From: Spirogloea muscicola
Lineage: Eukaryota > Streptophyta > Zygnematophyceae > Spirogloeales > Spirogloeaceae
Reading direction: 5' to 3'
DNA length: 38,931 nt
Assembly (NCBI GenBank): GCA_009602725.1
Contig: WELB01000108.1
Span: 189,744 to 228,674, forward strand
The position numbers were made by a program, and so were the translations under genes. The stretch's first letter is position 1. Each line of letters starts with the position of its first letter. Of this stretch, positions 6,580 through 38,540 are shown piece after piece. The notes beneath the pieces were generated by a model. It ran no database searches. It worked only from the letters and a program-made list of their open reading frames with translations, and was not told where the DNA came from.

Positions 6580-6613
6580 GCGAAAGAAGAAAGTGCTCGC
6601 CCATTGAGAATAG

Positions 6614-6632
6614 GGGCTGGAACAACCAGCCC
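6614..6632 (-). repeat. LINE 3' stem-loop, reference copy
   Basis: A perfect 7-bp stem GGGCTGG/CCAGCCC with a 5-nt loop, in the 3' untranslated tail of the LINE. The same stem with different loops recurs throughout the window. Confidence 0.85.
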
Positions 6633-6708
6633 GTAAAAGAATAAACAGAGTACGATAAGGGGGCCAGGGGAAGCGCTAAGTAACAGAAACAAAGCTGCTA
6701 CGAGACAC

Positions 6709-7790
6709 TCAGTAACCCCTGCTAAGCAGCCGCAGATCAGAGATGCTGGGCTCCTGGAAGTGGGTCCCCTGGCCAGAGCCAGAGGCAGCAGCGAGGGCTC
6801 TGCCGGCACGAAGGTGCAGCGCCCGGGCCATGGACCTCTGCAGCGAGACGGCCAGGCGCATTCGATACACTTGCGCCAGCGACCCGGCTGCAGGGAAGTC
6901 AACCGGCTCCCCATGGAAGCGCCGGGCGATGGTGTGGCGGGCGAGCTGGGTGAGCAGCTCGAGCCACCGAGCGCCCAGCGCCCCATGTGTGTCGATGGCC
7001 AACGGGAAGAACTCGTCTTCCCGCGGATGATCCGCGTACTTCAGCTCTTTGGCCCGAGCAGCGCAGGCGACCGCATACCCAGCCGTGGTGGCACATTTGG
7101 CTGGGTGTGAGCGGTCATAGGCATCAGTAGTCACCACGTCCAGGAGAAGACGTGGCCCGCCGGCCTGTCGGGTGGCCACCAGGTCTACACGCCTGGCATG
7201 GAGACCGTCGGCCCTGTGCTGGATTGGCATGATTCCGGAGTGCTCTGCTGCCACGGAGAAACCAGCCTCCAACAGGATGCCATGCATTACGTCGCGGAGG
7301 CGGTCGTGGGCCGCTGTCCGCTCTCCGCCGTGGGAACAGCGCAGAACATGAGCAGCCAGCTCTCCAGGCTCGGTCCCGCGCTCGCCACACTCACATTGAC
7401 GCACACCCTGGAGACATGGCGGCAGTAGGCCCAGGAGCCGGTGGACGGCACTTCGGAATACCTCGTCCGGGAGGGTGAGGGCGTCGTAGAGGGGGAGGGC
7501 CTGGAGCCACGCCGCAGCCCCCGGGGAAGAGGCCGAGTGGAGTCTCGCGCGCCCGCGCAAGTCGGCCTCGGGGAGCTGCAGCACGGCGGTGGTGTAGGCG
7601 GCCTTGTCGACCACTGCCGCGATGCGCGCTTGGACGCGCAAGTCGGCGGTGTGCGCGAGGTGCGCAAGGGATACCGCCTGGCCGGCCAGGTCCGGGTGCG
7701 CCGCGAGCAGCTCCTGGTGGGCGGAGCGAAGCGACACCTGGAACGGCAGCGGGCCCATGTCGACCTCCGCCACAACAGGGCGAAAGGAAG
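6709..7790 (-). CDS. LINE polyprotein C-terminal fragment (zinc knuckle plus nuclease-like domain)
   Basis: About 360 residues are open with no ATG of their own; the open frame reaches 7842 only by running through the neighbouring hairpin tail. Visible motifs: AWLQALPLYDAL, then CECG...H-x3-C...H (zinc-knuckle-like), then RRVDLVAT...LLLDVVTTDAY and KELKY, and the end SDLRLLSRGY. The arrangement C-x-CG/HxxxC followed by (R)xxD...DVxxT...K resembles the segment after reverse transcriptase in LINEs with a restriction-like endonuclease; that assignment is inference. The frame is uninterrupted, so the copy is probably young. It is non-functional alone because the polymerase part is missing. Confidence 0.7.
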
Positions 7791-7794
7791 CGCG

Positions 7795-7846
7795 GCCAGA
7801 TTGACTGGTGGCTGGGAAAGGCCAGCCCAAAAGAATGGACAAGCGA
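7795..7846 (-). repeat. Hairpin-only LINE-type tail
   Basis: On the minus strand it reads GTCCATTCTTTTGGGCTGG, loop, CCAGCC, then ACCAGTCAATC. It is nearly identical to 18168-18222 over about 50 bases. It lies between the LINE coding fragment and the pyrophosphatase gene, about 90 bp upstream of that ATG. Confidence 0.8.
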
Positions 7847-7934
7847 AGCAGACGAGCTCTCGGCCACCGAAGTGTCCCCCCCGACTTGCCAGCACGCAGC
7901 GGGCTCGCCGCCGCGCTCCTGCTGGGCGCCGGCC

Positions 7935-9901: not shown

Positions 9902-11078
9902 TCAGTAAAGCAGGGAGGCCCAAGCTGGCCACTGGACGGACTCTATCCATCCAGCTTCCCGTGCTTCTAACAGAGAAATCATGGGGCTCTCACGCTGCTC
10001 CACTTCAGATGAGCAACTAAGTGAGGAAAAGTCCGTGGGCTCCAGGCAAGTCGGAGCTGGCGAGCTATGAGCCATACCATGCTGTAAAGAACGACAAGGA
10101 TGGCATCCAGGCCTCCATATGTGCAGAGGTGCTGGAGGGCTCTGGCTGGACGTGTTGCTGAGACTTCCTGCTGGACTAAGCGACCTCTTCCAGCAGTCGA
10201 TCTGTTCTGGCATCAGGTACTCCTCAAGGCGTTGCAATGATGGCGCTTGCATGCCGTTGCTCAAGCAGGTCGGCACTGTTGCTATTGCGGTGACATAAGC
10301 TGGGTCGTCATCATTCCCCTCTTCGAAGGCTGGCCTACGCAGTCTCTTGAGAGGTGGAAGAACGTCGACAGGCTCCAGGATTCCTGTCAAAAGCTGGCTG
10401 CTGGTCGAGCAGATCGAGGAGGTTGCGCTCGCAACACTGGAGCTGGCGGCCTTGGCGAGCTTGCTCAGATGGGCGTGCTCTGGGTACACCGGGAGCCCTG
10501 CCCGGCTTCGCCGCTTGAGGCGGGTGTTCCAGAAGTTCTTGATCTCGTTGTCAGTGCGACCCGGCAGGTACGCCGCCATGTTGGCCCACTTGTTGCCGAG
10601 CGTCGTGTGCAGCAGCACGACAAGCGCCTCCTCCTCGGCAGTGAACGAGCCCTTCCTCAAGTCTGGCCGTAAGTGGTTGGCCCATCGCAGGCGGCAGCTT
10701 TTCCCGCACCTCCGCAGGCCTGTCCTTTTCTCGACAACGTTCCACTTACCCTCACCATGCTGCACAGGTGGACGTCTCCAGGTGAGCGTCGACTTGGTCG
10801 CACAGTGGCCAGCCAGCTTGTAGAGAGAGAGCAAAATGGAGCGATGTGGCCTATTCGTACAGAGTAGCTCATCTTCCACGATCTGCTTCCACACCTCAAC
10901 TCTGGATATGATCAATACTGGCTGTCGAGGTTACCTCTGTGACGTAGGCAAAAAGTATGGCGTCCTCTTCAGCCGTCCAAGGCCCTTTCTTAAAGCCCAC
11001 TCCTTCCCAGCCCAAGGATGCAGTTCCTGAAGCCTCGTCTGGGGCAGATAGGCTTGGCTCGCTTGTGGTGTAGGACAT
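9902..11078 (-). CDS. GAMYB-like R2R3-MYB transcription factor
   Basis: Nuclear DNA-binding regulator. Two exons, 10935-11078 and 9902-10759 (intron 10760-10934, GT-AG, phase 0); 333 residues from ATG 11078. R2 starts at residue 30 ([20 protein letters not shown], then [18 protein letters not shown]). R3 follows ([19 protein letters not shown]). [15 protein letters not shown] and the segment after R3, [21 protein letters not shown] without the last residue, mark the GAMYB group (subgroup 18), whose members act in reproductive and sporophytic programmes in land plants. The C-terminal 200 residues are Ser/Pro-rich and hold no further GAMYB box that I recognise; no miR159-like site was found by eye. 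The protein is shorter than angiosperm GAMYBs (about 500). Confidence 0.92.
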
Positions 11079-11610: not shown

Positions 11611-11682
11611 CTTTATCTGTTCATTCGTTTCGGGGCTGGCCTTGTCCAGCCCCTAGTCTCAGTGGGCGAGGCCCTTTCTTCT
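11611..11682 (+). repeat. LINE-type 3' tail, hairpin only
   Basis: TGTTCATTC, then an 8-bp perfect stem GGGGCTGG (11632-11639) / CCAGCCCC (11646-11653), then a diverged AGTGGGCGAGG box and CCTTTCTTC. No LINE coding end precedes it. Beside it, 11701-11716 is a 16-bp GC palindrome (GGCCGCGCGCGCGGCC). Confidence 0.75.
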
Positions 11683-11924
11683 TTGATGGGCGCACCCCCC
11701 GGCCGCGCGCGCGGCCTGTCCAGCCGGGAGGAGGGAGGGGGAGGGGGGGTGAGCTTGTGGCGCACGTGGGGCCCGGCGGGAAGCGCGGCGCGCCTCGCGC
11801 AGTGGCGGCCGCCCACCCCGCCGCTCGGGCTTTTCCCCAGTCGCCGGACCCACCACTCCCTTGGACCTTGTCAATCGGTGAGTAATTCACAATCATCCAC
11901 GGGCTTGCTTTCCACCTTAGGAGA

Positions 11925-12110
11925 GCCACCTTCTCTGACCTGAGGCTGCTTAGCAGGGGTTACTGAGTGATCCATTGCTGCTTTGTTTCTTTGTGTGCTT
12001 GTTTTTCTTAGCGCTTCCCCTGGCCCCCTTCTCGTCCTTTGTTGATTTTTTTGGGCTGGCTTTTCCAGCCCCTATTCTTAATGGGCGAGCACTTTCTTCA
12101 CCTTTTCTTC
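11925..12110 (+). mobile_element. LINE 3' end (last codons plus tail)
   Basis: It begins within the final codons of the LINE frame (DLRLLSRGY, TGA) and runs through CTTAGCGCTTCCCCTGGCCC to the hairpin GGGCTGG (12053-12059) / CCAGCCC (12065-12071), ATGGGCGAGC and ACTTTCTTC. It is a severely 5'-truncated insertion. Confidence 0.8.
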
Positions 12111-13180: not shown

Positions 13181-13183
13181 CTT

Positions 13184-13258
13184 TTTGCTCTTTATCCATT
13201 CATTTTGGGCTGGCCTTGTCCAACCCCTACCTTCCATGGGCGAGCCTTCCTTTCTTTA
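13184..13258 (+). repeat. LINE-type 3' tail, hairpin only
   Basis: TATCCATTCATTTT, GGGCTGG (13207-13213), loop CCTTGT, CCAACCC (13220-13226, one mismatch in the stem), then CATGGGCGAGC and CCTTTCTTT. The order of parts is the same as in the full LINE tails. Confidence 0.75.
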
Positions 13259-14858
13259 GAAAACATCTCGTCCACAGCACGTCGATGGCGCCCTCTACTG
13301 GAACATTCTTTCTCTTGTAAGAGGCCAGCTTTCGGTTAAATCGTTTGCGTGAGGATCGCACTAAAGTGCCTGGCGGTATGTGTAAATACGAAATGGACGA
13401 TTGCCACCTGCAGTTTAATACTTGCAGAGAGATTTGGTGCGTGACGGCTCTCGAAATGCCAAAACCCACTGCCGCAGCATGACCGCGCAGTCAGCCTACA
13501 GTCTACAGAATTTGCAGCCAGAATGTAGGAAGATACGTGCCACCGACACACAGCAAACGAGGCCTGCACACGTCATGCCTGCTTTGAGGCTACCGACTGG
13601 CCTGCCCACTTGTAACCACCCTTAAGAGTGACTTAGACCGACTCCAAGGACCTGGTGGATGCCCTTCATCACGTCAGACAAGGGAGGACAATTTCAGTTG
13701 TCCATCACGTAAAAGCCAGCACATGACGCCACAGAAGAACAAACAGAAGCCCGATAAGCTAAGGCGATTATTAGTCGCTGTTCGCTGTCAAGAATGATTG
13801 CAGTCAGTCAAGCAGCTCCCTGTTGACAATAATGAGTACACCACTACTGATGCTGGCGGCACAGAGAATGGCGTGTGATTACGATCGAACTTGTGAGGCG
13901 GCCACCGTGAGGCTGATTGTTACGGAATGTGCAAAATCACAATCCTTGACAACAATGTCGCTACATCTGCTGCTTTGGGCTGCAGCACCCTCATGACAGA
14001 TAGCGTCTACAAAGGCTGATAGCCATCACTTTACCAGCCAAACACCAAGTAAGTATCTAGTGTCACCTACCACCAGCCAAGCCAAGCTACACATATCAAA
14101 ACAACACCACCTTCTCAAAGTGCACCAGGACTGATTGAGCAAGATGGCCACATGTCGAAGGATGCACTTGACAGTAGCATGTATGGCGTTGCTGCACAGG
14201 CGGTTGCAAATCTGCCATGACACTCAAGTCCTTAACAGAGTATCTGAACAACAGTGTGTGCTTAACCACTAGACATTAGGGGCTACTCACACATAGGTGG
14301 GCCCGCATGCTTGCCCTGCAGCTCTTCAGGCTATCTGAACATTAGTGTGTGCTGAAAAACAGTGTGCTGAACAAGAGTGTGTGCTATAACACCAATTCTT
14401 AAGGGCCATTCACATACAGGCGAGCCTGTGTGCTTGCCCTGCAGCCCTCCTAACATGGGGTGGGCTTCAAGTGCTCACCACATGCTGGTACTCAAGTTAC
14501 TCAGCTGCCACTTGGCCCCTCAATATGCCACAGACTGGCAGCAGACAAAGCAGCTCGCTGCCAGATATATGGAAACGCCTGTGCTACATGTGACCATCCA
14601 AGTAGCTATGGCACTACAGTTGCTTGGCATCTATACATCCCAGCTCATGCTGGCCAGTTGCCTATCTCCAGACCATTGCCTGTGCAAATAGGAAAGTACA
14701 ATCCAATATAGCCTCAGGCACGTGGTGATAAGAGACAATTCCATGCTTCTTTGTCATTGACGAACACCTCCTAGTCATTCACTAGAGCACAGTATTGGCA
14801 GATCGTACGCAAGCAAGTCACATGCAACCTCGCTTCTACTGCAGCCTTGCTTCTAATT
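13259..14858. other. Unassigned sequence, includes a tandem duplication
   Basis: No gene is recognised; the open frames are short and lack family motifs. The only clear structure is the imperfect direct repeat at 14238-14455, listed separately. Confidence 0.4.
14238..14455 (+). repeat. Imperfect tandem duplication of about 100 bp
   Basis: TATCTGAACAACAGTGTGTGC ... GCATGCTTGCCCTGCAGC (14241-14326) is repeated as TATCTGAACATTAGTGTGTGC ... GTGTGCTTGCCCTGCAGC (14333-14450). The second unit carries extra internal AACA(A/G)TGTG repeats. Confidence 0.7.
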
Positions 14859-16462
14859 CTACACTGAGGTGCTTATCTGTGAAAGCACGGCACAAGATGA
14901 GAGTCCATCATTGCATACGCCACCAAGTCCCTCACCGTCAGGGTCAAAGAAGAAGCACTGCTTGACCTTGCCATCCTGCTGCGTCTTCTCAAAGAACTTG
15001 ATGCTTCTTTCCTATCACCATCATGAGGATGCCTACTTAGATTACGTCAAATGCCACCAAGTCCTTCTCTTGAGGTGTACAGAAGCTGGGGCAAGTGGTG
15101 TAGTTTGCGGGCAGACAATGAACAGATGAATGGGCTGGTCAATCACCTGAAGGATCTGAATGCAGGCATCATAATCAGCTACCTTGAAGGACAAATGTGG
15201 CCCCCTCCATAGATCACTGGTATCTTGTCTGTTTGCTTGTCCAGGCAATTGCAGCATGTCAACTTGAGATCAGTTTCAAAGCTCGAGTACATCAAAGAGA
15301 AGTGCCCAGTCAAAGTCTTGGATTTCACGTCCTATCTGCACGCTGCAAAGGTGAAAACACTCTGTGGGTTTCAATCGGCAATACACCCATACTGAGGCTG
15401 ATAGTATGAGCCTCAGTATGACGAGGCAAGTATTGCTGGCTTCAATGTAGCACCTGGCACCATCAGCTGCCACGAATGGGCTCTCTGGTAGAGAGGACGA
15501 GGTGTTTCGCTGCACAATGTGGAGAGAGTACGAAGGGGGCAGGTGAAGCCAGGTGACAGGGAAATCACCGAAGGACTCGGGAGTCTTCATCTCCTCAAAT
15601 CCAAAGAGCTGTCACAAGCAGGAAAGCTGCTAAATTAGGCATGCGTCATGGAGACTGTGATGCAACACAAGACCAGATCCAAGCTCTGGAAACGTGGTGC
15701 TCGTTGCTAAAGCGCAGTTTCCTAGTCTTAAGGAATGAGAAGGCTGAAAGGGCTAACAACTGAGAGGATGGCAATCAATGTATTCGTTATGACGAGGAGA
15801 AGGCACCAACTGCAGCTGGAATGGGTATTACTGACTGGGAACGCAGTAAATAGGGCAATCGCAACCATTGACTACTTGTAAAATCTACTTACTGCTTCTA
15901 CTTTCTTCTTTGTGCTCCCACTCAGCTTCCAAGTTCCTTATGGAATAGCCCTGTGCTTGTCTTGCTTGAGCCTGGGTTGGGCTTGATTGTGTTCAAGCTT
16001 GCAATCGGGGCTGGAAGTTGGGCCTGGGCTAAAGCTGTGAACTCTGACCTAAACCCTGAACCCTCAACCAAAACAAGCTCTAGCTTCGACTTGAGCTCGA
16101 GCTCAAGCTCTCACACACCCACAGGTCCACTTCTTCACGAGCGTCTTGACTTCAAGCTGACGACGATGTAGCTACACAGCGAAGCTTGCAGGTACCACAC
16201 GGTTCCTCCAGAGCGAGTTGCCTCCCCAGAGCTTTTGCGTCTCAATGTAGAACTTGCCAAACCCGCAGTGCTTTACACAGCTGCTACATGGACGAGGTGG
16301 TCTTGGCACTGAGCTCTTCCTGGGGTCTTCCAGGTCCCCAGTGGAATCTGAACATGCTCATAAGCTCCACTGGCTCACCTCTCGATAGAAGGCTGCTAGC
16401 TTGGCCACATCCTCCGTCTCCCGGGCGACGTGGTGCAGAGACACGCCCGCAAATGTGCCCAT
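14859..16462 (-). CDS. Glyoxalase/VOC superfamily protein (lactoylglutathione lyase-like)
   Basis: A small metal-binding VOC-fold protein; the plant relatives are glyoxalase I-like proteins. Minus-strand exons: 16379-16462, 15454-15608, 15147-15216, 14859-15011 (phases 0, 2, 0); 153 residues from ATG 16462. Motifs in order: LHHVARETEDVAKLAAFYRE, LFGFEEM, WLHLPPSYSLHIV, PHLSFKVADYD, IKFFEKT, then KVKQCFFFDPDG and VCND. These follow the plant glyoxalase-I pattern HV-ARE, WL--G--IHL, HISF, FFxDPDG, IEICN. Where the family has a metal-binding Glu (MIEICN) this protein has LGGVCN, so lyase activity is doubtful. Using a possible donor inside the last exon (14934-14935) would give another C-terminus (KHLSVELEARLQ), which looks less family-like. 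Substrate unknown. Confidence 0.8.
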
Positions 16463-16805
16463 TGCAAGCTTGGCTCCAAGCTCTTGTGCAGCGCCTCTCA
16501 CCCAGCAGCAATTGCTTGCACAGACGGCTGCGCGGCACGCTACTCTGCTTAATATGCCGAGAGGGTAGCTGGCTCAATATATGAGACGCCTCTCGTAACT
16601 GAGACGGTGGTCGCAGCACGCCAGAGGACCTGGCGGCGGCAACAAGCGAGCCTTACAAGCAGGGGAGACGCCGACTGGCAGCAAGACTACACAGGCGGCT
16701 GAAAGGTGGGGCAACCGCGGAACGAGCCACTTGTCATGTTACGCGGCATACAACAGACCTGCCACTTGGCTGGGACAGCTGCCTCCCTACAAGCGAGGAA
16801 AACGG

Positions 16806-17010
16806 CGCGCAGTGCGCATGAAATGGCCATGTTAAGCCAGTACACTGTTCAGGCAAAAGGGAGTGCGATTTTTGAGGATTCATTAATCGAAGCACTTTGC
16901 ATAAGGTGGCTAAGGTAACAGCGTGACGTTAGAATCCACGGGTGCACATACAGGTCCGACAGTCTAACTTGGGAAACCGGAGCACCGCCACGGAAACCGG
17001 TGGCCTGACT
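16806..17010 (+). repeat. Dispersed repeat B, copy 1
   Basis: Shares several blocks, in the same order and orientation, with 28795-29005: GCGCGC(A/G)GTGCGCATG, TTCAGGCAAAAG, GTGACGTTAG, CTAACTTGGGAA and CCGGTGGCCTG. It has no coding capacity. It could be a SINE or a non-autonomous DNA element; I see no clear tRNA-type promoter box or terminal inverted repeat. Confidence 0.65.
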
Positions 17011-17029
17011 CAGGCCCTTTCAGACCTTG

Positions 17030-17105
17030 TCCAATCCTTTGGGCTGGCCTCTCACAGCCTTTACTGTCAATTCACAAGAGCTGTTTTCGCTCTTTACTGT
17101 CTTAG
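17030..17105 (+). repeat. Class II hairpin tail
   Basis: TTTGGGCTGGCCTCTCACAGCC forms a GGCTG/CAGCC stem (22 bases shown as two parts: TTTGGGCTGG and CCTCTCACAGCC). It is followed by CTGTCAATTCACAAGAGCTG and TTTTC, which resembles the class I sequence CTCAATGGGCGAGCACTTTC. It sits right after repeat B copy 1. Confidence 0.55.
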
Positions 17106-18164
17106 AACGCGCCCAGCACGCTGATGAATGGCCAGAGCTTGGAAGCGCTATAGCTAAGCGAAAGCCGCATCCTGTAACACGCAACTAATGCCTGCGGAAA
17201 GCTAGTGTGCTCAAGCTTGCCCCCTGACCGTGACAACGTTCGTCAAGCAGCCGGGCCAGACGTTGGATGAGGGAGGACCACTTAACACTGTAGCCACCGT
17301 ATATACTCATAGCGCATGGATAGAAGTGGTCTCCTGAGGGTTATAGCGCTAAGTGCCCAGTCGGCATTTCACAAAGATGAGCGATGGCGCATGGTGCACA
17401 TGAAATGAAAGGGAGGCCAGGTTAGGCTCAATACAATGTTCAGGCAACAGCTAGTGTGGGGGTACACATAGTGAAGCCCTACGCTCACGGAAACGGGAGA
17501 ATTCACCAGCATTCGCCAACTTCTGCGCTCGTTCATTCATCTGGATCCTGGACCTTGTCCAGTACTTCTCGGCATCCACATAGTATATTTAATTTCCTCA
17601 CATGTGCCTCTAGTGCTTGCCTGAGCAGCATAGCTGGTGCAGTGCATTTGCATCCTTCGTTCAAGCTCACTCTTGTTCGCCACAATGTCTTTTAGGGGCT
17701 GCTGAAAGGAAAAATGTTGCTCCACCAGGCTGAGCTTCATGCGGGACATCCTTGTCACTGCAGATCATTTCACTGCTGGCGCACCCTCTTTCTACCTCAT
17801 TGACTGGCATCGACCGACCCCCATGACACCGGACCTTGTATACGTCATGTAGATTGCCAAAACCAAGTGGAGTAAGATCACTCACGCGAGCGCACCATTG
17901 AGAATCCAAAGGAAAGTGGGACCAAACGGTCCCATTGGTATCAAGAAGTCTCATGGAGCCCGATGGTGCTCCACTGAGGCATCTCACAGACAACCCCTGA
18001 ACCCTAAACAACCACCTCCATAACCAGAACCCTCACACCTGCTTTGTCCGGCCAGGCTGGCACCTCGACCCTTTGGCCAGTGATCTGACTGATTTTGAGA
18101 GCTTTCCGTGGTTGCCATTTCTCCGAGTTTTCTTCGAAACGCCTCCCCTCCCCTTGATAAGGAA
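17106..18164. other. Unassigned sequence with a partial repeat B
   Basis: 17385-17460 (+) is a partial copy of repeat B (GGCGCATGGTGCACATG, then TGTTCAGGCAACAGCTAGTG). On the minus strand 17820-18010 there is a moderately coding-like stretch (LLDTNGTVWSHFPLDSQWC) that I cannot assign to any family. Confidence 0.35.
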
Positions 18165-18222
18165 AGCTCGGCCAGGATTGACTGGTGGCTGGGAAAGGCC
18201 AGCCCAAAGGAATGGACCCCTT
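18165..18222 (-). repeat. Hairpin-only LINE-type tail
   Basis: On the minus strand: GTCCATTCCTTTGGGCTGG, loop, CCAGCC, ACCAGTCAATCCTGGCCGAG. It matches 7795-7846 almost base for base but sits in unrelated flanks. Confidence 0.8.
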
Positions 18223-19465
18223 GATAGCAGTCTCTTGCTGAGCTCCTTGATCCTTCACACTTTTGCGAGTCGCATCTCAGTAATCTTTGCGAACCATGCA
18301 TTCGCACCTGGAATCGTTCCTCCAAGGGACATGACAGCCTACTGGCCTTATGCTTTCCTTCACCACAGCAGGCATTCTAATTAAGTGGGCAAGGCACACT
18401 TCTGAGCCATTTGGCCCACTCCTACCAGCAATATGGCCTTTTATATACCACAGAGGTCGCCATTTGTCGCCGTCTCTTGTGTAAAGAATGAGGATCGTCA
18501 AGCCCAAGGACGAGGCGTTGGTGTCGCGAAGCAAAGGAGTCGGAGCCAAACGTATGCAATGGGTCAAAACAAACCAGCTGTTGAAATGTAAACAATGGCA
18601 AGTGTAAGCGTTTGGGGGGGGAGAGAAGGATTGCCATTGGCTGCCCCTCCTCCTAAGTAACCATCGAGGTTCTCGGGGCCCTGCCCCCGGCCTCATGGGA
18701 TTATTAGGCGCCCGGCCACTTGCTAAGCCCTCACAGAAGATCCACCCGTGGCCGCCGCCTCCGCCGCTGGAGTCGCCGCCGATTGCGGGGACCCGCGCGG
18801 AATACTAATACTAATACTAGTAGAGTTCTAACACTAGATTCCGGCTTTGCCGCCGTCGCGCTCCTGAATTCCATATTGCTCCTTCATCAGCGTCGCGCGC
18901 CATTATTCAGAGATGCGCTTTCTCTAATATCGCGCGCCCGTCCTTCGCCTCCTCAGTACCCCCTCCAGCTATCATTTCCCATGATATAGATGTTCCATCT
19001 TGTGTAACTTCGTTACATCTTGTGCGACTCTGGACCTGCTCGATCCTCTCGCACAGACAAGAGCGAAAAGCTGCTTATATCTCTATCTGTCATGAACCTG
19101 GTACAAATTCAACATCGAATATAGGAAGGACAAAGCACATGTTCTAATGAACGACATCTCCAAAAGCAAGCAAATGAGTATGTAAGAAGACAAACAAAAC
19201 CAAAGAGGGGCTGAGTGGGTAACACGACCGCATGAGAAGTACGGATGGGAACTTCGATATTCACTGGTTGGCACATCACGCGAGGACTAACGTCGCGTAA
19301 GAGGCGAGGTCCCGGCGCTCCGTGAGTGATTTTAGCAAGTTGTCCCGGACTCCGAACGGCTTGCGAGCAGGGTGCCCGACACGTCATTGCCGGTTGGTAC
19401 CCAGCCTCGCCCATAGTCGTAAGCAAATTGTATCCCGGAGGAGATTAGATACAATGCATTCACCA
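18223..19465. other. Unassigned sequence
   Basis: No gene is recognised. A short microsatellite, three units of AATACT, lies near 18800-18820. The open frame at 18277-18696 (-) has no family motif. Confidence 0.4.
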
Positions 19466-19565
19466 GAAGACGTAAGGGCTCGCCCATTGAGGATAGTGGC
19501 TGGAAAAGCCAGCTAAAAAAAGAATGTACAAAGTACGAGAAGGGGGCCAGGGAAAGCGCTAAGCG
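19466..19565 (-). repeat. LINE 3' tail, diverged
   Basis: On the minus strand: TTAGCGCTTTCCCTGGCCCC, then a stem AGCTGG/CCAGCC weakened by substitutions, then CAATGGGCGAGCCCTTACG. It lies just upstream of, and opposite to, the LINE remnant at 19640. Confidence 0.75.
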
Positions 19566-19639
19566 CATTTACCACCCTCTGCATACTTCAACACCTCAGC
19601 ATGTGAGCAGCCATAGAGATTTCACCAGCTCCGCGTCCC

Positions 19640-20388
19640 CACTCGCGCTGGCAGATGCCAGATACGTCCGAAAGGGACAAGGAAAGTTCGTGCCTAATTG
19701 GGGTGCGCCAGTGCGAGTGCGGCTTCCGTGCAGAGGGTGCTGTGCTCGCCACTCACATGCTGAGATGCCCCACTGGACCAGAAGTGGTGGGCATTCACAA
19801 CCTCCTTCGCGATGCCCTGGCGGGCTTGATGCGCGACGCCGTCTACCGAGCAGTCGTGGAAGTCAACAATATCATGCCTATCACCGCGGACGCCCAGGGA
19901 CGTCGTCATCACCGCACACTTGACATTGTGGGCGTGCAACCTGGTGGAGGACCACGGGCCCTGGTCGACGTTGTTGTTATGAGGCATATAAGGGCTCAGC
20001 ATCGACACACATCGCTGGGCATGCAGTGGGCGGTGCAGAACACAGAAAACTGCGGCACTACTCCGATTGCCCCCAATGCGATCAGCTCCTGCCAGCGGCA
20101 ATCGACATCTATGGCTGTCTGGGTCCTCGTTTCCGCACGCTCCTTCAAGACATTGCCAATCTAGGCTACAATCGACGTGCAGATGTGTTTCCGGCTGAGA
20201 TGGGCTTGCCAGCTGCATATCTGTCGCTCTTGCGACGACGAGTTTCGGCCTGTTTGCAGCGTGCTCAGGCTAGTGCCTTGCACCAGAAAGCTGGGCGAGC
20301 TCTAGTAGGTGGCAGAAGGGCTCCGTTCCTGGCATCTAGTATTCATGCATCGAGTAGTGACCTTTATGTTTTGACCCGTGGTTACTGA
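19640..20388 (+). pseudogene. Frameshifted LINE polyprotein remnant
   Basis: It is related to the fragment at 6709-7790 but diverged. The first part (19655 to about 20040) reads CECGFRAEGAVLATHMLRC...HRTLDIVGV...ALVDVVVM. The frame then shifts between about 20027 and 20050, and the second part (to 20388) reads LPAAIDIYGCLGPRF...SSDLYVLTRGY, TGA. The intact copy has ECGERGT, RRVDLVAT, LLLDVVTT, FFPLAIDTHGALGARW and SDLRLLSRGY at the matching places. The different end (LTRGY) and the lack of the usual hairpin tail downstream suggest a separate subfamily. It is probably inactive. Confidence 0.75.
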
Positions 20389-20534
20389 GCGGGTCAATCT
20401 GCTGTAGATTATGTAGATCTTTAGATGTGCTTGCCTTCGTACTTGGCCATTTGGCCTACATTTGTTTCTCATACACGGGTTTTCCCCTTGCTTTCGGAAC
20501 GGGCGGTGGCTATGGAATTATTGCGCGCGCGCCC

Positions 20535-20935
20535 ATGGAGAAGAGGGGCTGGCAGAGGCCAGCCCTAAAAGAATGGACAAAGTCCAGAAGGCCAGCCCCA
20601 AGAGAGTGGACGAGGGCGGCCAGCCCAAGAACTTATCCAGGAAGAAAGTGCTCGCCCATTGAGAATAGGGGCTGGAAAAGCCAGCCCAAAAAAGGATGAA
20701 CAGAACACGAGAAGGGGGCCAGGGGAAGCGCTAATATCCAGGGGCTTCTCAAAAGAAGAAGAAGAAAGTGCTCGCCCATTGAGAATAGGGGCTGGAACAA
20801 CCAGCCCGAAAAAGAATGCACAGAGTACGAGAAGGGGGCCAGGGGAAGCGCTAAGTAACAGAAACAAAGCAGCTACGAGACACTCAGTAACCCCTGCTAA
20901 GCAGCCGCAGATCAGAGATGCTGGGCTCTCAAAAG
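20535..20935 (-). mobile_element. Head-to-tail stack of LINE 3' tails
   Basis: On the minus strand, a complete LINE end (SDLRLLSRGY, stop, tail with GGGCTGG/CCAGCCC near 20795) at about 20935-20755 is followed directly by a second tail (20735-20640, hairpin with CTTTT loop). Two half-units with TTGGGCTGGCC follow (20635-20590). A final hairpin with an 8-bp stem GGGCTGGC/GCCAGCCC (20546-20553 / 20558-20565) closes the stack. The units share order and orientation, so they look like repeated insertion at the tail of an older copy. Confidence 0.75.
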
Positions 20936-21339
20936 GCCAGCCCAAATAAGCTAGACGAGGTCCAAGGACCGAGCAGATTCTGCGACACGGTTGTCGGACG
21001 GCACGCCGCCAGCGAAGGAGGCCGACGCTGACGCGGCACAGCCACGCCACGCGGCGCTCAAATATAGCAATTAGGTCGGGCAGACCGTCGTCGCAGAGCC
21101 ACTTGTCGAGTAACTGCGGGCGAGAATAGAGTGGCCAGCCGCCGCGTCCGTCACCTGGCGACAGAGCTGTCAGACGAGTCGTCCAGGGGGGCGCCTCCGA
21201 CAGCGGACCGCCGCGTGTGGCTGATAATCCCTTCTGGCGGCAGCCCTCCATCGCTCAAATCACAATCCAAGTTTTTCTCGCTGCGACCACCGCCGTCACC
21301 TTCGCCCTCTCAGTCCAGCTAGGGCTTTCCAGGACCCTA

Positions 21340-21440
21340 GCCTCTGTGATTTGCGGCTGCTTAGCAGGGGTTACTGAGTAATTTGTAGCTGCTTTCTTTC
21401 TTTGTGTGCTTTGGTTTCTTAGCGCTTCCTCTGGCTTCCC
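21340..21440 (+). repeat. LINE 3' end fragment without hairpin
   Basis: TTTGCGGCTGCTTAGCAGGG and the stop codon region, then CTTAGCGCTTCCTCTGGC; it stops before the hairpin. Both ends are broken. Confidence 0.7.
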
Positions 21441-25167: not shown

Positions 25168-26420
25168 GAGACCAGATGCCTTAAAGGAGGAGCATCCTGT
25201 AAATACTTTTGCCATTGACTCCCCTTGAAGTTCACTCTCCCCTTCCCATCAGCACAGCATCCTTGTTGGCACAGCAGACGATTACACTTCGGGAAGTAAA
25301 CTTGTGGGAAGGGCATGTTCCGCTGCCCAGATGATTTGCAGAGGCACCAGGGCAAGGTGATCAGCCTTCACCGACCACATGTTCACTCAACCCCAGCACT
25401 CGACCCAGCACTTGCTGTCTTCTACCTCAAGAACCCTACGTGCTTGCTTACAATCTGTCAAGGACTAGAGTTCGGTGGAGCTGCCCGTTGTGCTGTTAAC
25501 TCAGCCACTGGCTTCTACTAGTGTCAATGCTATGTCAAATCTCATGGCATTCTCGTCTCCCATATATTTTACTTGGCTGGAGAGTAGTGATGGTTGTTGC
25601 ATTATATAACTGCCAGCGGTGCTGCCAGCCAATAATTTACTAGCAGATACAGTGGGTATGCTGTCAGCATCCCATCCAATGCGCTACATCCTAGGTCAGA
25701 ATAGTTCTTGTCAATTTTGAGCCGGCTTTGGCCTGCTAAGTAGGCAGGGCTACTGCCTGGCTGTGTACTTTAATTAATATCCTTTTTTCTGCAGCCGTTT
25801 TGCGATTTTTATGGTGAAAGTGTGTTCTGCCTGCCGTGAGGTCCCCTGGATGAGAAAGCGCGCTGTGGAGTCATAACAGGTGTCAGCACTTTCTCGGCTG
25901 CCAAGTAAAATTTGGCATTAGTTGCAAGCCGTTCTTGTATTGCCCTTTCACAAAGGTTCAAGAACAACTCACCAGCTTGCCCATCTGGACTTCGCCATTA
26001 GCATGGAAGTATGACAGTGGATCACAACCATCGACAGATAAACACCAATGGCGAAGGACAGGACTTCTGGACATTGCTGGCTACTTTCACAAGTGAAAGT
26101 AGCCAGCAATGGTGCGCATGGCAGGGCTACTTTGGGCCTCACACTTACTAACAATTCGTACAACAGCCAGCACAACCTGACTGCAACACTGAGCTTGCCG
26201 GTCTGGACTCAGACGAGCGCGTCTGCGTGGGCCGGCGCGACGTCCACCTCGTTCAGGGTCTGCAGACGCAACGTGCGCTGGGTAGGACCTCAACCACAGT
26301 GCCTCAGCCACAAGCCGCTGTGAAAGTTAGCAGGGCGCCCTCGGCGACTGGCCGCTCGGGCACAGTCTCAATCTCTCACGATGATAGGAATTCGTCATGT
26401 GTAGCCCCGACTTGTGCACT
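25168..26420. other. Unassigned sequence with a perfect foldback
   Basis: No gene is recognised after the HD-Zip stop; the first part should be 3' untranslated. The 19-bp foldback at 26072-26111 is listed separately. Confidence 0.4.
26072..26111. repeat. Perfect 19-bp inverted repeat with 2-nt loop
   Basis: CATTGCTGGCTACTTTCAC (26072-26090), AA, then its exact reverse complement (26093-26111). It ends sharply on both sides. It could be a natural cruciform or a foldback join in the assembly. Confidence 0.85.
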
Positions 26421-26424
26421 CGCT

Positions 26425-27025
26425 TTTGCCTGAACGGCGTCTTGGTTACAATTGGCCTCCCTTTCACTTATGGGCACCGCGCACCTTCCCCTGCTGGAAT
26501 GCGACCCTGAAGGTCATATCTCATATCTCACATCTCATCTGACACTCAATCGGCACTCAAGCCACTCAAGAGTCTTCTGTTGATAGTCACTCCGTTGAAA
26601 GGTGACCACCAGATGGAGTACTCCGACGCCCCAAGCGGTGAGCCACAACCGGCCCGGAGCCAATCAGTTTTCTTGAAAACCGTGCTGACCTTACCTTGCT
26701 CCATGCGTACTTTTCTTTCGGAAAGGGAATTCATCAGCTGAGCTCCAACAAGCCCGCCACTGCCTTTTCTAGCGGTGCTGCAGCTCCCTAAATCAGCCTG
26801 TATGTGCACATTCGTTGCTACGAACATCCCCCCCAGCCTGCAAATGATACCTAAGCCCCCTTAATTTAGGGCTTCACTTCGCTTGGCCCAACTCCCGGCA
26901 CTAGCTCTGCCTGAACAGTGTGTTGGCTTGACTTGGCGGCCTCCTCATTGCACGCCATTGGGCTGGCCTCTTACAGCCATTGCCCCCTTCAGACGAGCTT
27001 CTATTCTTCATAGCTGCTCTTAGGA
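26425..27025. repeat. Repeat B fragments (-) and a class II hairpin tail (+)
   Basis: 26428-26490 and 26903-26945 are minus-strand repeat B starts (TGCCTGAAC, TTGGCCTCCCTTTC or GACTTGGCGGCCTCC). 26955-27025 (+) is a class II hairpin, GGGCTGGCCTCTTACAGCC, then CAGACGAGC and CTATTCTTC. The same pairing of repeat B with a class II hairpin occurs at 16806-17105. Confidence 0.5.
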
Positions 27026-27989
27026 GACAACCTGCTTAGGCGGGAACCGGCTAGAGTTGGCCTGTATGCACTTCCTTAAAATATCTGCTCGTCAGTAAAC
27101 AATGCCTTCCTGCCAGGCTGGGTTCCACACACATCATGCACGCTGCTCCAATTTGCTGCAAGTCTTCTATGAGTACCTGCAAGCTGCTTCAAGGGTTTAA
27201 TCTACTAAACCTCTGGCGGTGCCATGCTTCAAGAGCAAGCTCGTCAGCCTGTCTTCACCCACTAGATTGTCCCCCACAAGCAATGCTCTCAGCTCATGAG
27301 GCTTCACATGATCAAGCATCTGTCCCCCTTTTCCCAATGCACACTCATCCTGCACGATGCCTTACTGCTCTAAGGCACAAAGAGCCCCACTGGACGCATC
27401 TCTTTGCACATTCTCATACCGCTCAGAGCCACAAAAAGCCCCATAAAACTTGTGTCTTGCACATTCTTAACCATGTTACTGGTGGCAAGCTAGATGAGTG
27501 ACAAGACATAGCAGAACAAGTACCCACTGGCCTAGAGGTTGTTGAGATATAATGAATGGTTGCTGTGGTACTCGGCACATTAACGCAGACTGGAAGGAGC
27601 TCAGCCACCAATGACACGACTCCACAGAGCACGCAAATCGCAGTGACCTTCACGCAACACCTCATAAATTGGGCATTGTTCAAGTGGTGGCTGCTTGAGA
27701 GTGGTGGGCTGCATGTCAATCCCTCGAGCATCAAACAATGACATTGAAGAATCAACACCTGAGTGTAGGGGAGCAGAGCATGCCAACGGCCTCAACCATG
27801 AGGCGGCTTGACACCCTCCTTTTCTGCAAAATCAACAATGACTGCACCACACAAGGCAGGGTGTTACAAACCCTTTAACGACATTTGCTTGGGGTGCGGT
27901 AGGACATCCTGTGACACTGTACTCAAGAAAGCACGACAGGATCCAGGCCTTCTGTCACATTTCAGACAGTCCAAGGCGCAACCTCTTGA
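27026..27989. other. Unassigned sequence
   Basis: No gene is recognised. An open frame at 27808-28050 (+) has a C-x2-C-x5-C pattern (CLGCGRTSC) but no family I know, and it runs into the foldback arm. Confidence 0.35.
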
Positions 27990-28203
27990 CCAAGCACTGA
28001 AGTCGATGATCTTTGTTGGTAGCTATGGTGCCAAAGATGAAGCATGCTAGGGCGACTGAATACTTGGCGACCAAGGCTCGACTACATTGTCGGAGTGCAG
28101 GGTCCCGAGTAGCTCATAGACAAAGCCACCAGTGCCTAGTGCCCTAGCATGTCTTCAATGCACCCTGTAGCTACCAACAAAGGTTATCGACTTCAGTGCT
28201 TGG
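27990..28203. repeat. Large imperfect foldback, arms about 64 bp
   Basis: The left arm 27990-28053 and the right arm 28141-28203 are reverse complements in three blocks: CCAAGCACTGAAGTCGAT (18 identical), TTTGTTGGTAGCTA (14 identical) and CATGCTAGGGC (11 identical, at the loop side). Mismatched stretches separate the blocks. The loop is 87 nt. It could be a MITE, a hairpin RNA precursor or a local inverted duplication. It lies about 150 bp past the end of the ATP synthase epsilon frame. Confidence 0.75.
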
Positions 28204-28349
28204 ACACAGGTCGCATCTTGGAACGGGTAAGCGACTCGCAGATCGAAAATGGCAGCAGGCACAGGGTGTGAGAAGAAAAACAGTAGTAGCGGCACAATAA
28301 GCTGACATCGGTGACAATGGGCTGAATGGGGGCCAGTGCAGCCAACAGC

Positions 28350-28547: not shown

Positions 28548-28794
28548 GGTAGACGCCCCGCCGGGAAGCGAGCCGGACTCGTCTTGGCCGCCAAAGCGCG
28601 CAGACGCGCCCGACGGGGCAGAGGCGCCTCTGCGGATGCGGCGGCGGCGGATGCCGCGGCGGCGGCGGCGGCGGCGTGGGACGGCCCCAGGTGCCTTCGG
28701 GTGGGAATGCGAAGGCAGTCTAGCTGAGACGAGAACAAGTGGAAGTTCAGGTAACTGATGTTCGATTATATGAGAGAGGGGTGTTCCCAAAAGT

Positions 28795-29005
28795 GCGAAG
28801 GCGCGCGGTGCGCATGGAACGAAAGGGCGGCCAATTCAAGCAAGCCAATACATTGCTCAGGCAAAAGCTAGTGCAAATGAATTGGGCTCCATGGAAGGAA
28901 CCCTATGCTAAGGTAATAATGTGACGTTAGTACTCACTGGTGAGCACAAAGAGATACGACGAGCTAACTTGGGAAGCCGGAGCTCCGCCATGGAAGCCGG
29001 TGGCC
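28795..29005 (+). repeat. Dispersed repeat B, copy 2
   Basis: GCGCGCGGTGCGCATGGAA, AAAGGGCGGCCAATTCAAGC, CAGGCAAAAGCTAGTGC, GTGACGTTAG, CTAACTTGGGAAGCCGG, CCGGTGGCCTG: the same order as at 16806-17010. It lies upstream of ATP synthase epsilon, within its likely promoter region. Confidence 0.65.
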
Positions 29006-29918
29006 TGTCTTAGAGAAGGGGGAAATGATGTCTTTGGCTCTGCGGACGAACTGTCATTGCTCGGCTTGGCTCGGCGTTATCGACGACACTGAAGCTGGCA
29101 AAGCCGGCCTTTGGTCCATCACAACCGACAATATCTGCACTATATAGTTGCATCACTACTTAGGCTGGTGCTCGTGAACTTCTGCTATCATTCTCTGGCG
29201 TAGCTCTCATGGCTCTCTTGGGTCCAGAGCAATCTGAGCCATATAGTTGTGGCACCTCATAGCAGAAAACAAAAACCTGTCAGACTTTACACACTTCGCC
29301 TGTATCCAGTAGCCCCTTTCTGTGCAAGGGGTGCGATTCTCCTGCTGTCGCCTGGAGGAGCTCACGTTCATGAGCTCCACTCGATGAAGGGGTGTTTATC
29401 TATTACAAGCGAACGACCTCATTGGCCAAATTATGGGATGGTTATGGTCACTTACTCAGTTGGAGGAAAAATCTCAGGATCTACGGTCACGAGTTCATGA
29501 GTTAGGACTTTAGGCCTGCACGTTGGTGGATCATGCAGCAAAAGCATGAGCAGGAGCAGAAAGCGAGCTATGGGTTCTGATTGAGGCTCTGGTCCTGCAC
29601 CAGGCTCCAGTCCTGTGTCCTCCTACCACCACCCCTTCACCATGCTTCCCAACTCCTCCTTCTTCAACAATACTGCTCTCTCAACTCCTATCACGTCACC
29701 CCATCATGATACTTTCCATCTCTCAGGTCATCTATCATAATGCATAAACACCAAGGGATCCTGCCACCTTGAGCTCGACATGAGCTTAGTGAGCTTGTGC
29801 AGTACAGAAGTGCTTGAACATCCAAGGCGGACTGCTCCGCAACGTACAAGCACAAAGAATGGAAAAGAATAGGCCTTGCTTCATGAGAAGTCAAGGCCGA
29901 CTGACATATATAAAATGT
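29006..29918. other. Unassigned sequence downstream of COQ10
   Basis: No gene, tail or RNA gene is recognised. The part next to 29919 should be the COQ10 3' untranslated region. Confidence 0.4.
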
Positions 29919-31920: not shown

Positions 31921-32434
31921 GCTTCGACGGGGGCGGCGGCGGCAGCGGCGGCAGCGGCGGCCGGAGAGGGTAGTGAGTGTCGCNCGAGCTGGCCGGCGCA
32001 GCGATCGATGATCGCGCTCGTGGTTCTTACCCCGGGCGTCTGTCTCTCGCTGGATCAGACGCTGCCCCAGGATGAAAGTGGCTCTCCCAATGGGGGCAAG
32101 GACCGGGGAGAAGCCAGCCCGAATAGAATTGATAAGGTTCGAAGGGGCCAGACTACGAAGGGGCCAGAAGCGCTTTCTCCGAACAGGTGTAGGATGAGTC
32201 ACTCAATAAGTACGTGTGAGGAGCCTCAAATCCGACAAACTAGCACGATGAACTTATTTGGACAACTTTCACTAACCCTGGGCCGCCGGCCTCGACACCC
32301 AACATCTCGCCTGCCGGGCTGCGGCAGTCACGGCCGTAGCGACCCTGTGTATAGCCCACTCGTCAAAGCAACAGGCTCCGCTGTGCTTCGAGGCTGCCAT
32401 CCCAGCAATTGAGCTCACTGCTTACGTTGATTCT
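31921..32434. other. COQ10 upstream region with a diverged LINE tail
   Basis: GC-rich next to the COQ10 start, with an N at 31984. 32080-32185 (-) is an old LINE tail: AAGCGCTTCTGGCCCC, TATCAATTCTATTCGGGCTGG, then CCCCATTGGG; the stem is degraded. Confidence 0.5.
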
Positions 32435-32640
32435 CTTCGGCCTGGCTGTTCACAGCCCTTGCCCCTTTATAGAGAGCCACTTTCCTCTGTCCTCAGGGGA
32501 GCCCCGTTTCCTTCCTTTCTAAGCGCTTACCTTTCCTTCCTCGCCTTTCTGGCCTCTTCAGCCTTACTTCTCTCTTTTCCTGGGCTTGCCACTCACAGCC
32601 GCCGCCCTTTACTGGAAGAGTCATTGTTCTGTCTCCCTTC
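32435..32640 (+). repeat. Two class II hairpin tails in tandem
   Basis: GGCTGTTCACAGCC (stem GGCTG/CAGCC) with CTTGCCCCTTTATAGAGAGC and CACTTTCCTC downstream, then about 140 bp later GGGCTTGCCACTCACAGCC with CGCCCTTTACTGGAAGAG downstream. Both follow the class II order seen at 12600, 17037 and 26960. Confidence 0.55.
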
Positions 32641-36500: not shown

Positions 36501-37653
36501 CACTCTTACCAGCCAGAAATTTCTTATCAGTCCTGGCAATGCGTCGTTTGGTCAGCCAAAATTGCTGGATGCGGATACACCATGGAATCCAGGAACAGGT
36601 CTCAGTCTTCCATGGTTTCACATCGTTTGCCTATGTCAAGGATTGTTGCTATTATGGTGTTGCTGGCAGCATGAACCCTGATGCATCTTGTGCTACAGTG
36701 GATGTAGACACGGCGTCAGCTACTGCTTTGCTCCAGGCTGACTCAAGTGGGCAGCTAGCCAGAGATTACCCATTCCTCTTTGCGACCGCCGGCGACCTTC
36801 GTGTAGGCGATGTAACACTGCTTCTTAATGATTATAAGGAGCTTGTGCTGAAGCACGAGAAACTCTGCCACAAGTTCAAGGTGGACTTTCCAGGAACCAA
36901 GAGAAGCGCCAATGTGCAGAGGCATGCCTCCCTGCTTGTTTAGCAAAAATGTCACTGCCAGCTTAATTGATCTTGTGTGGGCATAATTGGCTCACAAGTG
37001 ACTGGCTGTTCCAATGCAGCTATCACAAGCAGGTGGAGAAAGGAGCACTCCCCCTCTTGCAGGCCCTGCCAAAGCCTGGTCCCCACTTACAGAAACTGAC
37101 AGCCAGCAGGCGTTGAGAAGTCCTCCTTTAGAAGTGAGTCTCCGACCTACGACTGTAGTCTGCTGCCCTGTGAGCATTAAGAATGATGCCCCTTTCATGT
37201 GCAAGCACCTTATAGAGAAATATGTCTGGCGTGAGCACTTCGCCTGAGAATTGTAGCTTGACTATGCAGGCCATTTTCGAAGGGCTCCAGATGATACCGC
37301 CACTCCAAGCTGGAGATGGACGTGAGCTTGTGGTCGAGCTTGCTCACAGCAACCTCGCTGATGGTTTGCCACCAACTCAGATCCGCAATGAAGATACTGC
37401 CAGTGAGGCTTTGCAGGCTGGCCCTGCTACCGTGCCCACAGATAGGTCGCCACTTACGCCCCTCATTCCGTCCATTGAGGGAGATGGTTTGGCTGTTGAG
37501 GAGGAACTGAGTGATTCTGCACCTGCTCACGACAGCTCGGCCACAAGCTTCTCTTATCCCGTAGCTGCCAGCCAAGCACCCACCTCTGAGGAAGAGGCTG
37601 GTCAAGACAGTACAAGCACTGTCACAGGCACGTCACAGCCTGCCAGCTCTTGA
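33544..37653 (+). CDS. VPS9A: VPS9A-like RAB5 guanine nucleotide exchange factor
   Basis: Activates RAB5-type GTPases on endosomes. Ten exons: 33544-33656, 34300-34447, 34865-35035, 35236-35415, 35708-35981, 36221-36313, 36447-36485, 36699-36880, 37020-37133, 37270-37653. All phases agree; 565 residues. N-terminal helical part: TFHDFLDRMRQPAAADLV, NPEKDSSSVQEF, THPLWSGASQEELDSAGE. VPS9 domain: GLEKYLMTKLFQRAF, LAQKELQKIN, YKAPRDKLVCILNCC, GADDFLPVLIF, ANPPQLQSNLLYIQRYR and YFYTNLVSAVSF, with the conserved Asp and the Tyr-x2-Thr-Asn motif for exchange. The C-terminal YPFLFATAGDLRVGDVTLLL with NDYKELVL is the plant-specific VPS9A tail domain. Exon 7 is a 39-nt microexon. The last two exons are Ser/Pro/Glu-rich and less certain. 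Confidence 0.92.
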
Positions 37654-38380
37654 CCGTTCGCCTCCAGCTGGAAGTAGAGCTTAAGGACGAGCGCAAGTGG
37701 ACAAGCTTGAAGCAGGTGCTCTGGACAGAACGTAGCATTAGGGGCTGCACTGCCTTGTCGTCTTCGAGTTGTCATTGCTTACTGGCGAGTTGCTGTAAAT
37801 GCTGAGTTATTTAGTCCATTATGTCCTTACAACTGTGCTTTCCATACTGCTTGGTGCTGTGTGCGCTCATTACCATGCCTTGTCTGGTTTCCTGATGACA
37901 TACAACCGATGGCAAGCAGAGAAATGTCTGTGTCAAATGTGGAGCTCTAAAAGCTGCTTTGCGGATGGAGCATTTGTTACCAGAGATCCTGGAGGAATGA
38001 AGTAAAAGATGGGGCCGAGGAAGGGCCCAATTGCTGGCCGGCTTTTGTCGAGCCTGCTTAAAGGAGCGGTGCTTTTGAACGAGCCCAGATGCAATGCAGG
38101 CCACCATAAAAGCTCAGTGTACAGTACATGCGTGCATGATGAAGGACACGTGACCATCTGTTCAAGAGTGTCGTGCTCATCGATCCCACGCCACTCCCCA
38201 TCGGAGCGTTGTCCTGGCGACGGCTTCGGAAAGGGGTCCACTTGCTTCGCTGTCGGGCCGGGAGACGGGCGCCGCGGAGTGCGCGCTTCCAGCCACGGGC
38301 TAGTGGCGCAATGGTCGCCGGCCGGCGGCGGGAGCCGCAAGGGGCCGGCCAGGCGGCCGCGACCGGGGGCCCTTCGCTCC
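37654..38380. other. Unassigned sequence downstream of VPS9A
   Basis: The first part is probably VPS9A 3' untranslated sequence. From about 38200 it becomes GC-rich and runs into a LINE end; the open frame 38009-38413 (+) only gains its DLRLLSRGY end from that insertion. Confidence 0.4.
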
Positions 38381-38382
38381 TC

Positions 38383-38540
38383 TGATCTGCGGCTGCTTAG
38401 CAGGGGTTACTGAGTGTCTCGTAGCAGCTTTGTTTCTGTTACTTAGCGCTTCCCCTGGCCCCCTTCTCGTACTCTGTTCATTCTTTTTCGGGCTGGTTGT
38501 TCCAGCCCCTATTCTCAATGGGCGAGCACTTTCTTCGCTC
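38383..38540 (+). mobile_element. LINE 3' end (last codons plus tail)
   Basis: SDLRLLSRGY, TGA, then the full tail: CTTAGCGCTTCCCCTGGCCC, TGTTCATTCTTTTTC, GGGCTGG (38490-38496), loop TTGTT, CCAGCCC (38502-38508), CAATGGGCGAGCACTTTCTTC without its first base repeated. It is nearly identical to the tails at 6584-6745 and 20755-20935, so these three are young relatives. Confidence 0.85.

Follow-up and report, generated by a model that had tools for sequence, protein, structure and literature searches.

A stretch of 38,931 nucleotides from the streptophyte alga Spirogloea muscicola (assembly GCA_009602725.1, contig WELB01000108.1, positions 189,744 to 228,674; hereafter the window) harbors a dispersed family of short repeats centered on a 7-bp hairpin. 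The family fairly likely represents the stringent-type 3′ tail of a non-long terminal repeat (non-LTR) retrotransposon, or long interspersed nuclear element (LINE), with a protein resembling those that carry a restriction-like endonuclease (RLE), as in the RandI/SINEX pairs of Chlamydomonas. The long copies share a common 3′ end, differ at their 5′ ends and are flanked by duplications, and the encoded C-terminus contains RLE-like motifs. The design is already known; the tail probably adds a new family to it. Recognition of the template through its 3′ end has been well studied for a few LINEs with an apurinic/apyrimidinic endonuclease (APE) and for R2, whereas green-lineage RLE LINEs have received much less attention. 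A compact tail that has an inner hairpin and possibly an outer helix, and that is present on LINE copies and alone, is a small RNA directly testable for binding and priming, and the same reading would explain many short GC-rich repeats of the window as retrotransposon ends.

The 3′ untranslated region (UTR) ends in a module of ∼70 nt, consisting of an upstream arm, a U-rich strand, the 7-bp hairpin, a pyrimidine spacer, a downstream GGGCGAGC arm and a short CTTTCTTC/TTC tail. The element's protein would bind this module, reverse transcription would start in the pyrimidine tail at the nicked target (target-primed reverse transcription), and synthesis would mostly halt early, giving 5′-truncated copies with duplications of 8–10 bp. 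The hairpin is probably the handle by which the element's enzyme grips the RNA for copying into DNA, and trans use of the LINE machinery by hairpin-only RNAs is plausible.

Copies of the tail and their insertion marks

The motif GGGCTGG-N3–12-CCAGCCC was found exactly eight times in the window against 0.01 expected, and seven of these hairpins belong to tail copies. The eighth, at 3198–3217, is a non-tail hairpin without a full-length match to the covariance model R1, which was built from all the tails. The sequence CTCAATGGGCGAGC showed 17 matches at ≤3 mismatches, a number reached by none of 100 shuffles; as 5.7 were expected, part of the 17 are chance matches. The homologous tails, comprising the seven exact hairpins and diverged ones, number 14 on both strands, in agreement with the original prediction of at least a dozen sites. 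The same prediction described a free loop on a conserved stem, and the mean majority fraction was indeed 0.71 in the loop against 0.96 and 0.92 in the stem arms (0.79–0.81 in the neighboring boxes and spacers, 0.66 in the tail). The extension of the stem to 8 bp by matched bases, claimed for two copies, proved one-sided: at 11632 all 14 alignment rows have the extra C and only the G is new, and at 20546 the C is shared by 11 of 14 rows, the G occurring in that row and two others. Six long copies contain LINE sequence upstream of the hairpin:

6587–7776 (−): 6586 copy, the longest (1190 nt, 5′-truncated), with the open reading frame (ORF) end SDLRLLSRGY, 3′ UTR, hairpin at 6614–6632 and TTC tail; duplication CTTTCGCCCT at 6577–6586 and 7777–7786, nominal p 0.0017
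20756–20926 (−): 20761 copy, 171 nt, hairpin at 20789–20807, TTC-repeat tail; duplication CTTTTGAGA at 20747–20755 and 20927–20935, nominal p 0.0083
20642–20734 (−): 20641 copy, 93 nt, beginning within the 3′ UTR at TTAGCGC, hairpin at 20669–20687; duplication CCTGGATA at 20634–20641 and 20735–20742, nominal p 0.011
19466–19564 (−): 19469 copy, 99 nt, stem with one U-A replacement and one mismatch; duplication TGGT[A/G]AATGC (9 of 10) at 19456–19465 and 19565–19574, nominal p 0.026
11937–12098 (+): 12047 copy, 162 nt, hairpin at 12053–12071; duplication CACCTT[C/T]TCT (9 of 10) at 11927–11936 and 12099–12108, p 0.13 in the fixed-window test
38382–38532 (+): 38484 copy, 151 nt, hairpin at 38490–38508; duplication CTTCGCTCCT at 38372–38381 and 38533–38542, nominal p 0.0017

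The long copies have one common 3′ end and differing 5′ ends, most tails end in short CTT/TTC runs, and duplications of 8–10 bp were observed at all six (two with one mismatch) and at one of the eight hairpin-only copies described below. This is in agreement with the LINE 3′ end that had been predicted. The accompanying claim that copies carry either the SDLRLLSRGY codons or the hairpin only was correct for four of the long copies (6586, 20761, 12047 and 38484), which have the codons, and not for the 20641 and 19469 copies, which contain part of the 3′ UTR only. In the sequence of the element, the latter two (20642–20734 and 19466–19564) begin ≤2 nt apart, each copy having its separate duplication; the 8-mer CCTGGATA occurs once more in the window, at 36189. 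The 20761 copy landed inside an older GGGCTGGCC unit. Inspection by eye of the region 20515–20975 showed a nested arrangement, with two LINE tails inserted in succession into several GGAC..GTCC..GGGCTGGCC-like units.

The duplications of the 14 copies were evaluated against random flanks from the window in a fixed-window test, with slightly narrower windows than in a permutation test of the flank pairs. The nominal p was <0.03 in six of the 14 copies, i.e., five long copies and the hairpin-only 18176 copy, and Fisher combination over all 14 gave p 1.4e-6. The nominal values are optimistic, as the junctions were placed after inspecting the flanks. The higher value of the 12047 copy arose because the fixed window cut its 9-of-10 duplication short, which is visible with a wider window. 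Three of eight duplications (6587, 20756 and 38382) start with CTT, as does the element's tail, and hence their boundary base or bases can be assigned to either side; annealing of the tail to the target is one possible reason for this start.

Tail structure and the encoded C-terminus

In the 14 tails, 91.8% of the 98 cells of the apical stem are paired. The stem hardly varies, one pair having a two-sided change, and it lacks the support by compensatory change that is expected in a stringent-type pair of a LINE and a short interspersed nuclear element (SINE). When the 3′ UTR was folded, the two boxes of the original prediction proved able to pair with each other, CUC.GUUCAUU with AAUGGGCGAG, as an outer helix that surrounds the hairpin. 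Five tails or 3′ UTRs were folded (20761 excluded), four of which beat their shuffles (z −2.0 to −3.3), the fifth giving −1.4. When the apical stem and outer helix were scored together in the 14-row alignment, 4 of 500 shuffles attained the covariation score and 18 of 500 the count of two-sided pairs; the corresponding counts were 8 and 41 in a 16-row model-fitted alignment, and 12 and 43 for the outer helix alone in the 16-row alignment. These shuffles ignore relatedness, such numbers arise without structure, and some of the two-sided changes fall in rows with a hard-to-align 3′ arm. On sliding the registers, the covariation score dropped at every shift, and the two-sided-change count was equalled or exceeded by at least one slid register in all three covariation runs. 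Across families, the arms were no better paired with their own partners than with permuted ones (main test on 16 of 19 loci, p 0.14–0.32 over six window sizes; p 0.63, 0.33 and 0.32 in subsets of 5, 7 and 13 loci), and a compensation between the GGGCGAGC and GGAAGAGC families was dropped following this negative duplex test. The outer helix is a lead, weakly supported within the family and unsupported across families. Further upstream, the 3′ UTRs of the 6586 and 38484 copies folded with another hairpin of 7 bp; the 12047 fold lacks it, and it is not taken to be conserved.

The 14 tails match both R1 and a second covariance model with the outer helix, R2, by construction. R1 added four distant tail-like matches (E 0.006, 0.04, 0.064 and 0.07), of which R2 retained those at 17025 and 26944 at E 0.1:

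17025–17090 (+): family B, distant tail-like copy (R1)
32422, 12586 and 26944 (all +): further distant tail-like copies

The ORF of the 6586 copy (ORF 1) is translated at 6712–7779 into 356 amino acids, the first residue or so belonging to the flank, and the open frame extends to 7980 through the duplication and the adjoining 7790 copy. A homologous ORF 2 lies elsewhere in the window:

19664–20388 (+): second LINE C-terminus, frame-broken, ending in SSSDLYVLTRGY and followed by a different 3′ UTR

The two are identical at 45 of 96 residues (47%, E 6e-23) and 49 of 128 residues (38%, E 9e-19) and terminate in a similar SDL..L.RGY. In both, C-E-C...H-x3-C is followed by an H, by D at two places (VDLV/LDIV and LLDVV/LVDVV) and by K-x2-[KH]-Y. 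In RLE LINEs, as described in PMC5678591, a zinc knuckle CX2-3CX7-8HX4C lies upstream of the endonuclease, a conserved H stands at the start of the first helix, and the catalytic K is in a KX2KY motif in the second helix, its second K being less conserved. Comparable features were found here: KX2KY is represented by KELKY in ORF 1 and by KLRHY in ORF 2, where H replaces the second K; the motif falls in a helix that is predicted with low confidence and preceded by predicted strands, an earlier helix begins with an H, and a knuckle lies upstream. The position of GXW beyond the fourth strand is occupied by GARW in ORF 1 and GPRF in ORF 2, near to the motif and not exact. The predicted order helix-strand-strand-strand-helix fits a PD-(D/E)XK fold, but in a model with a mean predicted local distance difference test (pLDDT) score of 40. 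Judged from these motifs, the protein looks like an RLE LINE product; it is called RLE-like and not a member of the group because its zinc-knuckle spacing differs from the one described (PMC5678591).

The 3′ UTR of the second LINE (20388–20530, +) lacks the hairpin family and contains TTGGCC-ATTT-GGCC. Its fold was no better than shuffles (z 0.69), and no common 7-mer was found between the flanks searched at its ends.

Several observations weigh against an RLE-like LINE with a hairpin-dependent tail. Covariation in the apical stem was at shuffle level, the score being reached by 202 of 500 shuffles; the original prediction had proposed covariation as its check, counting its absence above background against itself, and for the apical stem this absence is what the window sequences gave. 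The outer helix appeared in the minimum-energy fold of four of 14 tails (6586, 20761, 20641 and 38484), some with a mismatch; the four are near relatives and the other ten fold differently. The permutation test of the duplications was non-significant (p 0.11), its null being inflated because the nested copies at 20500–20960 share flanks, and seven of the eight hairpin-only copies had no clear duplication in the random-flank test. On the protein side, the knuckle spacing is CX1CX12HX3C in ORF 1 and CX1CX11HX3C in ORF 2, outside the RLE-LINE range. Both ORFs are C-termini only, and no reverse transcriptase domain occurs in the window copies. For ORF 1, Pfam gave no match up to E 1 and the PDB no matching sequence, a profile of the two ORFs had no match among PDB sequences up to E 10, and a piece of ORF 2 gave two Pfam matches below the cut-off (UPF0547, E 0.023; zf-WRNIP1_ubi, E 0.12). 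Two structure models were of low confidence (mean pLDDT 36 and 40), and in a Foldseek search with a low-confidence model the R2 retrotransposon structure 9dou came 26th of 146 (E 2.2, not significant). No relatives outside the window were found among viral contigs, phages and prokaryote genome contigs, a negative that says little because these collections have no eukaryote genomes. Lastly, one LINE copy seems to have been inserted without the hairpin:

21330–21439 (+): LINE copy with its 3′ end before the hairpin, the first 11 nt being of other origin; SDLRLLSRGY-type codons with the first residue changed; duplication CCAGCTAGGGC, an exact 11-mer at 21315–21325 and 21440–21450 (14 of 15 if extended by eye; outside the random-flank test)

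This copy matches the LINE 3′ UTR as far as CTTCCTCTGGC and then breaks off, which argues against an absolute requirement for the hairpin; its source may be another subfamily or internal priming. Confidence in a stringent-type RLE-like LINE tail is slightly tempered by the few tails that fold with the outer helix and the post hoc nature of the duplication p values.

The tail was not found described in a text search of the open-licence literature, where sequences are not searchable, and its resemblance to known systems was assessed from published descriptions. LINEs that depend on a 3′ stem-loop shared with SINEs are well known (PMC4176376). A close likeness is to RandI/Dualen and the SINEX elements, which comprise green-lineage RLE LINEs with non-poly(A) 3′ repeats and short tail-sharing elements: SINEX-1, -2, -4, -5 and -6 of Chlamydomonas are listed as tail-sharers with ATT or CTTT repeats, SINEX-2 having (CTTT)n, whereas the repeats listed for RandI itself are (ATT)n and (CTATTT)n, a comparison by description only (PMC3747384). 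Dualen is described as encoding both APE and RLE in one protein, whereas the present element is known from its C-terminus only (PMC4640811). Zebrafish ZfL2-1 and ZfL2-2 and eel UnaL2 similarly have a 3′ stem-loop followed by short repeats, and ZfL2 mutants with the stem-loop deleted are reported not to retrotranspose; however, these elements belong to the L2 clade, and the loop is decisive for protein binding in ZfL2-2, whereas in the window family the loop varies and the stem is constant (PMC4176376). Plant L1 and the monocot SINEs ZmSINE2 and SINE2_SBi share a 3′ hairpin whose 3′ side bears a conserved CGAG, comparable to GGGCGAGC 3′ of the stem here, but they are of the L1 clade and their stem varies with compensation around a fixed loop, the reverse of the present family (PMC3747384). 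Most RLE LINEs are described as target-specific, unlike the varied insertion sites in the window (PMC4640811).

Hairpin-only copies and their origin

Eight copies contain the tail without LINE sequence upstream. A nhmmer profile was built from the six long copies alone; the highest score that it gave in 100 dinucleotide shuffles was 12.9 bits. Seven of the eight scored above all shuffles, two of them just barely, so that short units with the LINE's 3′ tail sequence, as in a stringent-type LINE/SINE pair, are represented by these seven; the 21948 copy fell below the best shuffle.

11613–11684 (+): 11628 copy, 40.5 bits; possible 6-bp duplication CTTTGA, p 0.11
20515–20583 (−): 20527 copy, 4-nt loop, 28.6 bits; no duplication
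13190–13257 (+): 13202 copy, one stem mismatch, 26.9 bits; no duplication, p 0.48
21785–21852 (−): 21797 copy, 25.8 bits; no clear duplication, p 0.38
7784–7842 (−): 7790 copy, 15.6 bits; no duplication, flanks without a common 6-mer
32070–32137 (−): 32082 copy, old, stem partly broken, 13.5 bits; no clear duplication, p 0.32
18160–18216 (−): 18176 copy, a 57-nt insertion, 13.0 bits; perfect 10-bp duplication TATCAAGGGG at 18150–18159 and 18217–18226, nominal p 0.0023, one of 14 tests
21936–22002 (−): 21948 copy, old, TTC-repeat tail, within a repeat of family C, 10.4 bits; no duplication

The check on duplications put forward with the original prediction therefore came out in favor of independent insertion at 18176 alone. 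Self-BLAST gave 93% identity over 59 columns between the 7790 and 18176 copies, and their match ends at one 5′ point; the 32082 copy resembles 32430–32487 (+). The hairpin-only copies diverge from one another and probably stem from more than one subfamily. Two pairs of copies have a common 5′ point, 7790/18176 and 20642/19466, and the points singled out are TTAGCGC and GTCCATTC. Discrete short RNAs or fixed enzyme stops would both fit.

The chances are about even that the hairpin-only copies are extreme 5′ truncations of LINE RNAs from several subfamilies, or old fragments, with no separate short RNA mobilized and the hairpin kept because its recent sources are few. This explanation applies to the hairpin-only copies and can hold together with the LINE part of the preferred reading. 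The insert lengths between duplications form a series (1190, 171, 162, 151, 99, 93 and 57 nt), as truncation would give, and it is also in keeping with the rarity of clear duplications among hairpin-only copies (one of eight) and with the apical stem that does not covary. The single 5′ point at which the 18176/7790 match stops speaks against it, as do the 20642/19466 starts with their separate duplications; both would fit discrete source RNAs or a reverse transcriptase that halts at fixed sites.

A less likely origin of the module is one or more SINEs with a head of their own and a borrowed LINE tail, mobilized in trans. The shared 5′ start points of the two pairs, the independent duplication of the 18176 copy and the Chlamydomonas SINEX/RandI precedent are as such an origin would predict. 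Yet neither a tRNA-like nor any other head was found, no tRNA gene was called in the window, and there was no Rfam match at gathering scores. Two candidate joins of head and tail involve family C (21948 and 26898). A SINE made of a family C body and a hairpin tail was disfavored at 21948: there the 3′ end of family C continues on the far side of the hairpin, so that a nested insertion accounts for the join more simply.

It is rather doubtful that the 57-nt unit is a free-standing retroelement, its RNA consisting only of the LINE recognition module, with hairpin, possibly an outer helix, and pyrimidine tail, and moved in trans by the RLE-like LINE, with discrete source RNAs accounting for the shared 5′ ends; if true, it would be among the smallest retroelements known. 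Least probable is that the stem and boxes are constrained as DNA, e.g., as protein-binding or recombination sites, since conservation without apical-stem covariation would suit this but the copies are asymmetric, with a fixed 3′ end, variable 5′ ends and junction duplications, and the outer arms show weak covariation of the kind expected for RNA.

Other features of the window

The second dispersed repeat, family C, measures ∼215 nt in its two longest copies, has the body CCTGAACAGTGTATTGGCTTGAATTGGCC and ends in several copies with GCGC-ACC-GCGCGCCTTC. It may be a SINE. Its copies are located as follows:

16804–17013 (−): family C
28795–29013 (−): family C
17381–17456 (−): family C
21602–21683 (+): family C
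26415–26488 (+): family C
26898–26937 (+): family C
22146–22195 (+): family C

An inverted repeat at 27970–28053 and 28141–28222 (80% over 86 columns, 87-nt spacer) resembles a small inverted-repeat transposon. Palindromes were observed at 26072–26111 (40 bases, 95%) and 15388–15420 (33 bases, 91%), and a tandem pair of ∼90-nt units, 75% alike, at 14234–14448. The gene content of the window is eukaryotic, in a pairing suggestive of the green-plant lineage: a gene with two Myb repeats lies at 9905–10930 (−) (Pfam Myb, E 1.3e-22) and a homeodomain gene at 23342–23818 (+) (E 4.3e-15), with a weak match to HALZ (E 7.9e-4, below the cut-off) after the homeodomain.

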